From positions 1-20,910 of IMG/VR virus record IMGVR_UViG_3300037587_000037: DNA of 20,910 bases; one strand, given 5' to 3'. This DNA comes from a virus. Below the pieces are notes generated by a model. That model searched no databases. It had not been told where the DNA came from and saw nothing but the letters and a program-made list of their open reading frames with translations. Each line of letters begins with the position of its first letter. The stretch's first letter is position 1. Below, one piece after another: positions 2,713 to 19,905 of the stretch. The position numbers and the translations under genes were made by a program.

Positions 2713-3216
2713 ATGGACGATATTAAGAAAATTACACAAGCTGCACTAGCACAGGCTGGGGTACATTCTATTAACATTAAAGGTAAGACTTACACAATTG
2801 AGTTGTTGCCTGCTACCCAAGCATTTGCGGTAGCTATTCAATTAGTGAAGGTAGCCCTTCCGACTATCGGTGCAATTGTTGATGGTACTAAAAAGCAAGA
2901 TCTAATTCTACCTGAAGAAGATAACCTATTCACAGATGCAGCAGTATTACTAGTAGCCCAGATGAATAACATCAGTGTGCTAGATATTGTCCAATTGCTT
3001 ACGCAAAAGATCACTCTGGATGGTAAGGCAGTTAACATTGATGACGAGTTTAAAGGCAACCTTGGTGGTCTAGTTTGTCTTTTAGAGTTTACTCTTAAGG
3101 AGAACGTGGGTGATTTTTTTACCGAATATCTTCAGGCAAAGGGAATTTCAATACAGAGCCTGAAGGATCTGATGGGAACGAAGGAAGAAACTACCTCACC
3201 CTCAGAAGAAACGTAG
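2713..3216 (+). CDS. Tail assembly chaperone, zero-frame product (gpG-like)
   Basis: The zero-frame product is 167 residues and sits between tube and tape measure genes, the position of the lambda G / P2 E type chaperone that holds the tape measure protein during tail assembly. It is largely helical, with the segments ITQAALAQAGV, TQAFAVAIQLVKVALP and LGGLVCLLEFTLKENVGDFF, and ends with an acidic Ser/Thr/Glu tail. I start it at the ATG at 2713 behind TAGGAGGA (2697-2704). An in-frame ATG at 2677 lies in the loop of the terminator hairpin and has no Shine-Dalgarno, so it is unlikely to be used. The end overlaps an open -1 frame that continues to 3422, indicating a frameshifted longer form. Confidence 0.83.
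   Translation: MDDIKKITQAALAQAGVHSINIKGKTYTIELLPATQAFAVAIQLVKVALPTIGAIVDGTKKQDLILPEEDNLFTDAAVLLVAQMNNISVLDIVQLLTQKITLDGKAVNIDDEFKGNLGGLVCLLEFTLKENVGDFFTEYLQAKGISIQSLKDLMGTKEETTSPSEET
3114..3165 (+). other. Predicted -1 programmed frameshift signal (slippery sites and hairpin)
   Basis: T TTT TTT occupies 3114-3120 exactly in the X XXY YYZ register of the chaperone frame. Nine bases later a perfect 8-bp inverted repeat, CTTCAGGC (3130-3137) and GCCTGAAG (3158-3165), can form a hairpin with a 20-base loop, the normal layout of slippery site, spacer and stimulatory structure. A second canonical heptamer in the same register, A AAG GGA, occupies 3138-3144 inside the loop. Either slip leads to the -1 frame that is open from 3114 to the TAA at 3420-3422, and both give a 236-residue fusion. 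Which heptamer is used cannot be told from sequence alone. Confidence 0.72.
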
Positions 3217-3422
3217 AAGATAACTCAACTCTGACAAATAGTGATTGGTTATTCTATAACATTTTATCAAGTAAACATTGTCCTGCTACAGATATCAAAA
3301 CACTACAATGGGAGTATACTCTTCCAGAGTTCCTTAAATTAAAAGAATACGTTGAGATTATGGATAGTGCAGAAAGGGCTTCTCATAAAGATCTCGAAGT
3401 TAAAAGAAACTCAATCAAATAA
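3114..3422 (+). CDS. Tail assembly chaperone -1 frameshift extension (gpT-like part of gpGT)
   Basis: This frame has no convincing start of its own and is open from just after a TGA at 3111-3113 to TAA at 3420-3422. It is offset -1 from the upstream chaperone gene. The translated segment includes SDWLFYNILSSKHCPATDI, then TLPEFLKLKEYVEIMDSAE. This pattern, with Trp/Leu-rich short helices around a proline and a charged C-terminus, looks like the T-domain of phage GT or P2 E' proteins that bridges chaperone and tape measure. It would be made only as the C-terminal part of a 236-residue fusion. It ends nine bases before the tape measure start, the conserved order. An independent small gene is unlikely because no start with a Shine-Dalgarno is present. 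Confidence 0.72.
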   Translation, partial: FFYRISSGKGNFNTEPEGSDGNEGRNYLTLRRNVEDNSTLTNSDWLFYNILSSKHCPATDIKTLQWEYTLPEFLKLKEYVEIMDSAERASHKDLEVKRNSIK

Positions 3423-3431
3423 AGTGAGAAC

Positions 3432-5621
3432 ATGATGGCAACAGAAACTGTAAATGATTGGGTAGTAAAGGTAGGTTTTGACGATTCTGAAGTTGTTAAG
3501 GGTGCTAAACGTGTTGAGAAAGTCATGCAAAGGCTTGCCAGAACACAGGCCAAACTGAATAAGAACATAGGGAAAGTTTCATCAATAAAGGTAGACCTTG
3601 ATACTTCAGCCTTTGATAAAAGTGCTAGGAAGATTGAAAGTACTCTTAACAGGTTTGCTAAGACACGAGCTAAGGTTAATCGGGGTGATGAACTAGTAAC
3701 CAAACCACCTAAGCGTGTGAAGACCCCTAAAACCTCCCCTGCCAGTAACATACTTAAAAAAGAACAAGATGAATTAAAGACTATTAATTCATTGGAGGCT
3801 AAGCGTCTACAGCTTCGTAGATCCATAGAAAGAGCTAAAGACCTTGACATAGAAACTGGTGGATTTACTAGATCCCTTAGAGGCGGTAAAGTAGATAGAC
3901 TAGAGCAAAGACGTTTAGAGCTTGAGAATCTAATAACAAAGGAAAAACGTAAGCAAAAGGATCTTGCAGAGAAGACTGCTAAGTTAAATTTAGCTACGGC
4001 AAAAGTGGCCCCAGTTGTCACCCCACCGAAACCCAAGGTCACGAAAGCACCTAGTAAGTTTCAACTAACCGATGAACGTCAACTAAAGCTTGCTAACACT
4101 ATCGATTCTGTTATCAGGCGGGCTGCCAGAGGTTTAGATAAAAACTCAGAAGGGTTTAACAAACTAAACGCAGAAGCGGGAAGACTTAAAAAGACTATCT
4201 CCGGTGTTGGTAGCAGAATTGGTTTAGAGAAATTAAATAACCAGATCAGAATCCTAAGGGATAACACTACATCGGCTACAGCAACTTCTCGTAGGTTGAC
4301 TCAGCAGATGGATTCACAAAAATTCGCTTCTAACTCGCTACGTAACAGTATTAGAAATCTAGGTGCTCAATACGCTTCTGTGTTCCTTGCTATTGAAGGT
4401 GCTAGAGCTTTCTTTAATACAGGTAGAGAATTCGACTCTATAAACGCATCGTTACTTGCTGCGTCAGGAAGTTATGTACAAGCTGGTAAAGACTTTGAAT
4501 TCATCAAAGATATTTCCTTAGGTCTGGGTATCGGACTTAGTGACGTAGCTACTGGTTTCGCTAAAATAGGTGCAGCCGGTAGAGCCTCAGGTTTAAGTAC
4601 CGGGGTGATCCAACAGTCTTTCTCAGACATATCTAAAACTGTACGAGCTTTTGGTTTAAGCCAAGATAGAGCTGGTCTAGTATTCCTAGGTTTCCAGCAG
4701 ATCCTGTCAAAAGGTGTGGTTTCTATGCAGGAACTTCGCCAGCAGATCGGTGAGCAGCTTCCCACGGCAATACCAATTGCTAAGAAAGCTTTGAAGGCTA
4801 TGGGTTCTAGTTTTACTAGTCTAGACGATGCAGTTAAATCTGGTACATTGTCAGCTAAAGAGTTCGTTCCTATATTCTCAAGATTACTTAGAGAAAACGT
4901 TGAAGAATCTGGAGCGTTAGAAGCATCCTTGAATACCATCACGGCTGCACAACAAAGATTCACTTCAACACTTCAACTATTAACCATCAGGTCGTTTCAA
5001 GCTGGTGGTAAGAAAGGTCTAGTATTCTTCTTCAACAAAATCACTGAGGCTGCTGAGGTTTTTGCACCTTCATTTAAGATACTTGGTAAGGTAGTTGGAG
5101 CAGCCGCTACTGCATTAGGTGGTTTACTTAGAGCAGTATCAATCATGGCAATTCCGTTCCAAACGTTAATTGGTTTGGTAAATGATTTATTAGGGGCATT
5201 ACTGGACATTCCAGACGCTACTGAAGAGGGTGCCACAAACTTCTCGAAGTTAATAGATGGAATGTTAATTTCACTTAAGTTCTTAATTGGTGCATTACTA
5301 ATCATTCCCGGTTTGATAGAGGAATTTTTCCTCGCCATAGATCGAATAAAGGATAAGTTTGACTTCGGTTCCTTGTCAGGGATATTAGATGTACCCGGTC
5401 AGATAGCCTCCGCTGCTGGAAGGCAAGCGTTAGAGACATTCGGAGCGACTTTCGAGAAACCTCTTTTCCCTGAAAAGAATGAAACATCAACTAGTACCGT
5501 AAACTCTGGTAACAACATAACTGTCACTATCGATGCTACTGGTGCCGAATCGGATGGCGTGATAGATCAAATCGAAGACTTTTTCCAAGATTTGTTCAAG
5601 ACCGCAGTACCATCTGAATAA
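3432..5621 (+). CDS. Tape measure protein
   Basis: The product is about 729 residues (two adjacent ATGs at 3432 and 3435; the second is slightly better spaced from AGTGAG). Residues 1-300 are Lys/Arg-rich and helical with coiled-coil character. Residues about 320-500 match the tape-measure core domain: FDSINASLLAASGS, GLGIGLSDVATGFAKIGAA, MQELRQQIGEQLPTAIP and a SAKEFVPIFSRLL stretch. Hydrophobic segments around residues 550-640 (for example FLIGALLIIPGLIEEFFLAI) are the part thought to insert into the host membrane during DNA delivery. The C-terminus is Ser/Thr/Asn-rich and acidic. At roughly 0.15 nm per residue, the family rule of thumb, the tail would be near 110 nm. It follows the chaperone genes directly, as in most tailed phages. 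Confidence 0.93.
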   Translation: MMATETVNDWVVKVGFDDSEVVKGAKRVEKVMQRLARTQAKLNKNIGKVSSIKVDLDTSAFDKSARKIESTLNRFAKTRAKVNRGDELVTKPPKRVKTPKTSPASNILKKEQDELKTINSLEAKRLQLRRSIERAKDLDIETGGFTRSLRGGKVDRLEQRRLELENLITKEKRKQKDLAEKTAKLNLATAKVAPVVTPPKPKVTKAPSKFQLTDERQLKLANTIDSVIRRAARGLDKNSEGFNKLNAEAGRLKKTISGVGSRIGLEKLNNQIRILRDNTTSATATSRRLTQQMDSQKFASNSLRNSIRNLGAQYASVFLAIEGARAFFNTGREFDSINASLLAASGSYVQAGKDFEFIKDISLGLGIGLSDVATGFAKIGAAGRASGLSTGVIQQSFSDISKTVRAFGLSQDRAGLVFLGFQQILSKGVVSMQELRQQIGEQLPTAIPIAKKALKAMGSSFTSLDDAVKSGTLSAKEFVPIFSRLLRENVEESGALEASLNTITAAQQRFTSTLQLLTIRSFQAGGKKGLVFFFNKITEAAEVFAPSFKILGKVVGAAATALGGLLRAVSIMAIPFQTLIGLVNDLLGALLDIPDATEEGATNFSKLIDGMLISLKFLIGALLIIPGLIEEFFLAIDRIKDKFDFGSLSGILDVPGQIASAAGRQALETFGATFEKPLFPEKNETSTSTVNSGNNITVTIDATGAESDGVIDQIEDFFQDLFKTAVPSE

Positions 5622-18373: not shown

Positions 18374-18784
18374 ATGGCTATAGTTGAACAGAACATGTTT
18401 GTAATCCGAGACACAGTGAAGAACAAGATCATGGAAGGGGCCAAAGGTCAATTTGCATTTAGCACTAAGGGTCATGCTCGTAAGTCTCTTGTTCATACAG
18501 GTTGGTGGACACGCTACAAGAAGCTCACCACTGTACGTAAGTTGATGCCATTCGGTGATCAGAAGGTTGATGGACTTGAACAGATCATTGAACTGAGAGC
18601 AGCAGAAGACGCATTTAATCATGACCCAAATTTAACACAAGCTCTTAGAAACATCGAGAGTGAGATCAATACTTGGATACGTAATAAGGATTACCGTGAA
18701 GAGTTTAATAAGATTAAGTTTGACAAGCAGAAACGCTTTGCTGTAGAATTACTCACATCAGTTGAAACCAAGGAGATTACATAA
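18374..18784 (+). CDS. Unidentified 136-residue protein, first gene of the RNA ligase operon
   Basis: I do not recognise this protein. It is soluble-looking and basic in its first half, with KGQFAFSTKGHARKSLVHTG and WWTRYKKLTTVRKLMPFGD, and more acidic and helical in the second half (EQIIELRAAEDAFN, NIESEINTWIRNKDYREEFN). No catalytic motif is obvious. GGGAG (18360-18364) precedes the ATG, and its stop overlaps the RNA ligase start (TAATG), so translation is probably coupled. The early aromatic and basic residues would suit nucleic-acid or protein binding, but this is inference. Being the promoter-proximal gene, it should be the most strongly transcribed of the operon. Confidence 0.78.
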   Translation: MAIVEQNMFVIRDTVKNKIMEGAKGQFAFSTKGHARKSLVHTGWWTRYKKLTTVRKLMPFGDQKVDGLEQIIELRAAEDAFNHDPNLTQALRNIESEINTWIRNKDYREEFNKIKFDKQKRFAVELLTSVETKEIT

Positions 18785-19905
18785 TGTTGGAAGTTCAAAA
18801 GTTCTTGATGGGTGCTACGAGGGTTCAAAGCAATGAACGTGCTCTTGAATCTCTAAAGGAACAGACAGGTATCAAGGCAAGCATCTGGGAAGATAAACTC
18901 GTGGTGCTCAACTACTGTCAGATCGAGTCTAAGAAGACTTGTGCAATGGCTCAAGAGTGTCGTTCACTAGTTCTGGAACTTGGTTCTTGGAAGATTGTGT
19001 CTCGTTCCTTCAACCGTTTCTTCAACTACGGTGAAGAGCCTTGTCCTGCTATTGACATTCAATACATGACTGCATTCGAGAAGATGGATGGTTCATTGAT
19101 CGGACTGTTCGAATATGATGGTGAATGGATGTACCGTACACGTTCTGTCATCATGCCTGTCTCCGGTATCAATGGATGGGAAGTAACTTGGAAGAGCCAT
19201 ATTGAACAAGCTCTGGGCCACCTATACATGCTGAAGGGAGGTGAGGTAGTACTGAATCCTCGTTACACTTACATCATGGAAATGACTTCACCTGAGAATC
19301 GTGTAGTTACCAAGTATGCTAGTCCGTCACCACAGATGACGTTACTCGCTTCTCGACATAATGAGAAAGGTCACTACAATCCTCTTGATGTTAATGGTGG
19401 AGTAGCCCATCATCAGGGATGGGGAATGCCTAAGGCTTACTCCTTTGATACTATCTCAGACTGCCTGACAGCTGCCAAGGAGCTACGTGATCTACAGGAA
19501 GGCTATGTACTGTATGATCGTCATGGGGTGCCTGTGTGTAAGCTGAAGAACCCTGCTTACGTTGCTGCACATCATCTACGTGGTGAAGGTCTGAATCCTA
19601 AACGGATTAAAGACTTGATCATCATGAATGAGGTAAGCGAGTATCTGGCAATCTTCCCTGAGGATCGTAAGATGTTTGAGCCTTACATGGATGCATACCG
19701 TGATTTAGGGTTGGCATTATTCGAGTATCTTGATCTTTCTTACGATACCGACTTGACTCAGAAGGAATTTGCACTTAAGATTGCACACCTACCTTTCAAG
19801 GGTGTTCTGTTCACACTACGGAAAGATCGACTTGGTGTAACAGATGCTTGGAAGAAGTGCACAACCAATACCAAGTATCAACTAATTGATGGGATGATGA
19901 AATGA
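18784..19905 (+). CDS. rnlA: RNA ligase 1, T4 Rnl1-like
   Basis: This encodes 373 residues, near the 374 of T4 Rnl1. The nucleotidyltransferase motifs appear in order: motif I FEKMDGSL with the AMP-accepting lysine at about residue 100 (T4 uses K99); a preceding SRSFNRFFNYGE, as in Rnl1; motif III-like YTYIMEMTSPENRVV (161-175); motif IV EGYVLYD (239-245); motif V CKLKN (252-256). The C-terminal 100 residues are helical, as in T4 Rnl1, where this part helps bind tRNA. It seals 5'-phosphate and 3'-hydroxyl RNA ends using ATP; the known role is repair of tRNA cut by host anticodon nucleases such as PrrC. No polynucleotide kinase partner is in the window. Arginine codons are almost all CGN, and the ATG overlaps the upstream stop. 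Confidence 0.92.
   Translation: MLEVQKFLMGATRVQSNERALESLKEQTGIKASIWEDKLVVLNYCQIESKKTCAMAQECRSLVLELGSWKIVSRSFNRFFNYGEEPCPAIDIQYMTAFEKMDGSLIGLFEYDGEWMYRTRSVIMPVSGINGWEVTWKSHIEQALGHLYMLKGGEVVLNPRYTYIMEMTSPENRVVTKYASPSPQMTLLASRHNEKGHYNPLDVNGGVAHHQGWGMPKAYSFDTISDCLTAAKELRDLQEGYVLYDRHGVPVCKLKNPAYVAAHHLRGEGLNPKRIKDLIIMNEVSEYLAIFPEDRKMFEPYMDAYRDLGLALFEYLDLSYDTDLTQKEFALKIAHLPFKGVLFTLRKDRLGVTDAWKKCTTNTKYQLIDGMMK

Follow-up and report, generated by a model that had tools for sequence, protein, structure and literature searches.

The tail assembly chaperone gene of the virus contig IMGVR_UViG_3300037587_000037 raises the question of where, and whether, ribosomes change frame within it, since two slippery heptamers lie close together near its 3′ end and the −1 frame is open beyond both of them. 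A first-pass annotation of this DNA had proposed a programmed −1 frameshift and had singled out as unusual the overlap of two sites, one served by a downstream hairpin and the other inside it. Our analysis covered the whole stretch of 20,910 bases (here called the window); the parts of the chaperone gene and the tape measure gene given below are on its + strand. The reading that we favor, with a probability of about 0.94, is that this chaperone gene belongs to a contractile-tailed phage and undergoes programmed −1 ribosomal frameshifting at the first heptamer, T TTT TTT; the second, A AAG GGA, probably arises as a side effect of the coding sequence.

Pfam and phrog matches identify the neighboring genes as those for a tail terminator-like protein, the sheath and a tube-like protein on the 5′ side and for the tape measure and a Dit-like protein on the 3′ side, which by these matches is the usual gene order for a contractile-tailed phage. 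The zero frame (2713..3216) runs from ATG 2713 to TAG 3214–3216 and encodes a 167 aa short chaperone (TAC-N) that matches Pfam PF21822 Phage_TAC_15 (5.5e-19) and phrog_1613 (7.5e-22); it lies directly 5′ of the tape measure gene (3432..5621; Pfam TMP_3, 7.9e-22; phrog_2335), which directly follows the −1 extension. The chaperone has a single PDB sequence match, 21nr_A (E 5.6e-4), to its N-terminal part only. ATG 2713 appears a likelier start than ATG 2677, because AGGAGG lies just 5′ of it. The mechanically called open reading frame begins at ATG 2677, within a terminator-like hairpin (GGGGC-TTTAT-GCCCC followed by a T run, 2662–2694) that lies between the tube-like and chaperone genes. A terminator is annotated at the equivalent place in the records of two relatives (L021 and L025), and the hairpin may set the amount of chaperone made. 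Farther along, 3′ of the tail and lysis genes, 18784–19905 encodes a T4 Rnl1-type RNA ligase (Pfam RNA_lig_T4_1, 2.3e-15).

The −1 frame and its proposed slip site

Rechecking of the sequence agrees with the first-pass annotation that the −1 frame is open from 3114 to a TAA at 3420–3422 and that T TTT TTT (3114–3120) stands in the correct X XXY YYZ register. The last −1 stop before the site, TGA 3111–3113, abuts the heptamer. Over the 134 codons that precede 3114 the −1 frame contains 17 stops, and the 102 codons that follow contain none (chance about 1e-6); the longest −1 open run among the other genes of the window is 55 codons. From the heptamer on, the −1 frame has 40–46% identity to its nearest relatives in blastp (E to 4e-27), and it is still recognizable in Alteromonas phage V22 (3.7e-6). 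A profile built from the −1 frames of the closest relatives matches one made from the −1 domains found in Vequintavirinae and their relatives (E 2.1e-6). On this comparative evidence the −1 extension (3120..3422), the C-terminal domain of a long chaperone (TAC-NC), is a conserved protein domain that stays open past the zero-frame stop. A shift at either heptamer would give a fusion of 236 aa; the two fusions were originally said to differ in eight residues, but the difference is of six (YRISSG vs TEYLQA), the K-G that follows being identical in both.

The comparison set consisted of 40 related loci and the window (41 in all), including isolated phages of Alteromonas, Pseudoalteromonas, Shewanella, Rheinheimera, Pseudomonas, Aeromonas and enterobacteria, the remainder being IMG/VR contigs. 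No locus spanning the slip site came from IMG/VR searches that used the window's chaperone, −1 frame or tape measure, or from a genome_contigs search that used the chaperone, and matches to the sheath gene stopped short of the chaperone gene; the near relatives were reached via the tube-like gene and an alignment query. Eleven loci that share the zero-frame motif YLxxKG or its equivalent are referred to below as the near clade.

Neither strand has a T7 run other than T TTT TTT, and this heptamer and A AAG GGA are the only in-register X XXY YYZ heptamers in the chaperone gene; such heptamers occur in register 21 times in the 4915 codons of the window's other genes. The first-pass annotation had suggested aligning related chaperone genes to learn which heptamer is conserved, and it is the first that is kept. 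A T-run heptamer (TTTTTTT, TTTTTTC or TTTTTTA) is found at the same Phe-Phe position in 36 of the 41 loci, among them IMG/VR contigs as well as Vequintavirinae and Ounavirinae phages (this count includes L032, whose T run sits one codon later), and the remaining five carry other motifs, CCCTTTA (L030, L031), GTTTTT (L007, L010) and GGGAAAG (L022), all of which are also shift-prone. The GTTTTT of L007 and L010 agrees with the motif published for that group.

All 36 distinct rows use TTT for the first Phe, a codon choice made 56% of the time elsewhere in these genes (P about 1e-9), and 35 of the 36 have T at the free third position just before that codon (joint P about 1e-10, assuming independent rows); related rows are not independent, so these and the other P values given here are optimistic and serve only as guides. 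Pairwise synonymous conservation along the gene is raised at the slip-site codons D134, F135 and F136. Many relatives also keep FFY and then R or G immediately after the heptamer, residues that only a shift at the first site would produce. T-run heptamers with a final pyrimidine rank with the motifs that shift most readily in E. coli (PMC4066793). Because the position of the T run is conserved and the −1 frame is conserved as protein, we take T TTT TTT to be the real slip site, and comparison with the 40 related loci gives strong support to the proposal of a programmed −1 shift there that yields a chaperone fusion of 236 residues.

In L022, a Barbavirus relative, the T run has been lost and G GGA AAG, the heptamer of phage lambda, lies a few codons further on (1218–1224), a natural motif swap. 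In two near relatives in which CCCTTTA replaces the T run (L030:5946-5982 and L031:5945-5981), the hairpin is much stronger, at about −18 to −19 kcal/mol, and its sequence contains AAAGGGT and GGGTTTC.

Probable flanking stimulatory elements

A feature overlooked in the first pass is the internal Shine-Dalgarno-like sequence AAGGAG at 3097–3102, 11 nt 5′ of T TTT TTT. By the rule of Sharma et al. 2014 (PMC4066793), an SD-like element lies in the stimulatory range in 31 of the 41 loci, compared with 12.3% of control codon positions, and it is weak or missing in the other 10. Synonymous conservation peaks at the codons that make up this element, K129, E130 and N131. Its distance also falls within the 6–17 nt upstream that define a dnaX-type SD-like element. 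This comparison shows the element to be conserved in most loci, and AAGGAG is likely a 5′ stimulator of the shift.

On the 3′ side, the perfect 8-bp inverted repeat described earlier, nine bases past the heptamer, was found again on recheck, with CTTCAGGC (3130–3137) as its 5′ arm and the perfectly complementary GCCTGAAG (3158–3165) as its 3′ arm. The predicted hairpin of 8 bp has a stability of −10.6 kcal/mol, which is only modestly unusual (z = −0.99 vs dinucleotide shuffles), and 5.6% of the window's other positions give a fold as good. The dnaX-type arrangement calls for a conserved stimulatory hairpin 4–10 nt downstream. In several near-clade loci hairpins of varying sequence lie 8–9 nt 3′ of the slip site, and across all 11 the region is more stable than elsewhere (Fisher 2e-6, the loci being not fully independent); the 26 more distant loci show no significant extra stability there (Fisher P=0.09). 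Pair counting gave no significant covariation in the hairpin, 200 of 500 shuffles reaching the observed score. A stimulatory hairpin is therefore probable in the near clade only.

The second heptamer and other explanations

A AAG GGA (3138–3144) is indeed in register and within the hairpin loop, as had been noted. If both heptamers functioned, the hairpin and the SD-like element would drive slippage at the first, and ribosomes that passed it could still slip farther on, at A AAG GGA. We consider this unlikely. In its favor are the AAAGGGN found at +24 or +27 in 7 of the 11 near-clade loci (L029 has GGGAAAA nearby), the high-level frameshifting of A_AA.G_GG.A in E. coli assays (PMC4066793), and the raised synonymous conservation of codons A142 and K143. 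However, the AAAGGG bases are forced, because the zero frame encodes x-K-G and the −1 frame K-G. When zero-frame synonymous codons were resampled and an in-register heptamer was sought in the next 14 codons, one appeared in 36% of draws for the window, and the 8 of 11 near-clade loci that have one compare with 4.9 expected (P=0.058), so there is no significant conservation beyond coding constraint. In addition, L028, L040 and L032 within the near clade, as well as the wider family, manage without a second heptamer, and the hairpin could not stimulate the second site, because a ribosome positioned there has already unwound it. The overlap of two functional sites, claimed as the unusual point of this locus, is thus not supported; A AAG GGA is probably an incidental by-product of coding in two frames. 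Some slippage on it is possible, since the motif is shift-prone in E. coli assays (PMC4066793), and any such slippage would add a little of a nearly identical fusion. An evolutionary version of the two-site idea, that in the near clade a four-codon insertion just past the slip site brought in a hairpin arm and the second heptamer and so created a pair of slip sites used in series, of which the second becomes accessible only as a ribosome opens the hairpin, with motifs turning over (TTTTTTY, CCCTTTA, GGGAAAG) while the shift is kept, we regard as similarly doubtful.

That the −1 frame is instead a separate gene with its own start, as the small hypothetical gene given here in several database records would have it, is very improbable. 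The window has no ATG, GTG or TTG in this frame upstream of 3360, and conservation of the −1 frame reaches back to the heptamer itself, with the FFY-R/G start in many relatives. Slippage of RNA polymerase on the T run, with the change of frame carried in the mRNA, fares a little worse still: there are seven consecutive T's (eight in L032), but transcriptional slippage usually requires longer homopolymer runs. Runs of nine have been discussed in this connection (PMC5009743). Here the run stops at six T's, with a C next, in 16 of the 36 distinct rows, and the substitutes CCCTTTA and GGGAAAG are ribosomal slip motifs, not homopolymers. Finally, although a homopolymer sits at the junction, a sequencing or assembly indel that split one gene into two frames can hardly be credited, as the same break occurs at the same codon in dozens of independent genomes.

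Under the preferred reading, a programmed ribosomal shift at T TTT TTT, we infer slippage itself, its rate, the role of each stimulator and the function in assembly as follows. The majority of ribosomes would make the 167-aa protein, while a minority would pause as AAGGAG (3097–3102) pairs with 16S rRNA and the hairpin lies ahead, nine bases 3′. Paused ribosomes would slip back one base at 3114–3120 and read on to 3422, making the 236-aa protein with its extra domain. If lambda gpG/gpGT is a guide, the tape measure protein would be coated by the short form, and tube subunits would be brought in by the long one.

Relation to known frameshifts

In lambda G/GT and P2 E/E′, as proposed for the window, a −1 shift near the 3′ end produces a short and a long chaperone and the tape measure gene comes next; the window's chaperone belongs to Phage_TAC_15 / phrog_1613, and the likeness to lambda and P2 is one of layout. 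Lambda and many other phages are known to use frameshifting in their tail chaperone genes (PMC5009743). E. coli dnaX has the succession of elements that is proposed here, an SD-like element about 10 nt 5′, a heptamer and a 3′ hairpin, but it is an unrelated gene, its heptamer is A AAA AAG, and its shifted product is the shorter one (PMC5009743).

The closest parallel comes from a December 2025 paper, in which this gene is proposed to undergo a conserved −1 shift, with the motif GTTTTT, in the families Vandenendeviridae and Andersonviridae (PMC12846349). Those phages (Pseudomonas phage Adele, Mooglevirus; PMC12846349, PMC4319497) resemble the window in having a homologous TAC-N between the tube and tape measure genes, a −1 frame open for >200 bp and a T-rich slip motif near the end of TAC-N, whereas the window has the full T TTT TTT in place of GTTTTT. 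A text search of the Adele paper (PMC12846349) turned up neither a Shine-Dalgarno stimulator nor a hairpin. The kind of frameshift found in the window is thus already known, and the present analysis adds the full heptamer, its wider conservation and the SD-like stimulator, and demotes the second heptamer.

The joined gene is already annotated at this place in the records of Shewanella phage 1/4 and Citrobacter phage Mijalis, while other records give the −1 frame as a separate small hypothetical gene, and the present comparison provides grounds for correcting the latter. With it, the conserved frameshift that was recently proposed now takes in a clade of uncultured phages, the slip site that matters is named, and a Shine-Dalgarno-like element, a likely upstream stimulator, is seen to be kept by most of the 41 loci. 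That slip motifs replace one another at a single position among these relatives amounts to a small natural experiment on what phage frameshifting requires.
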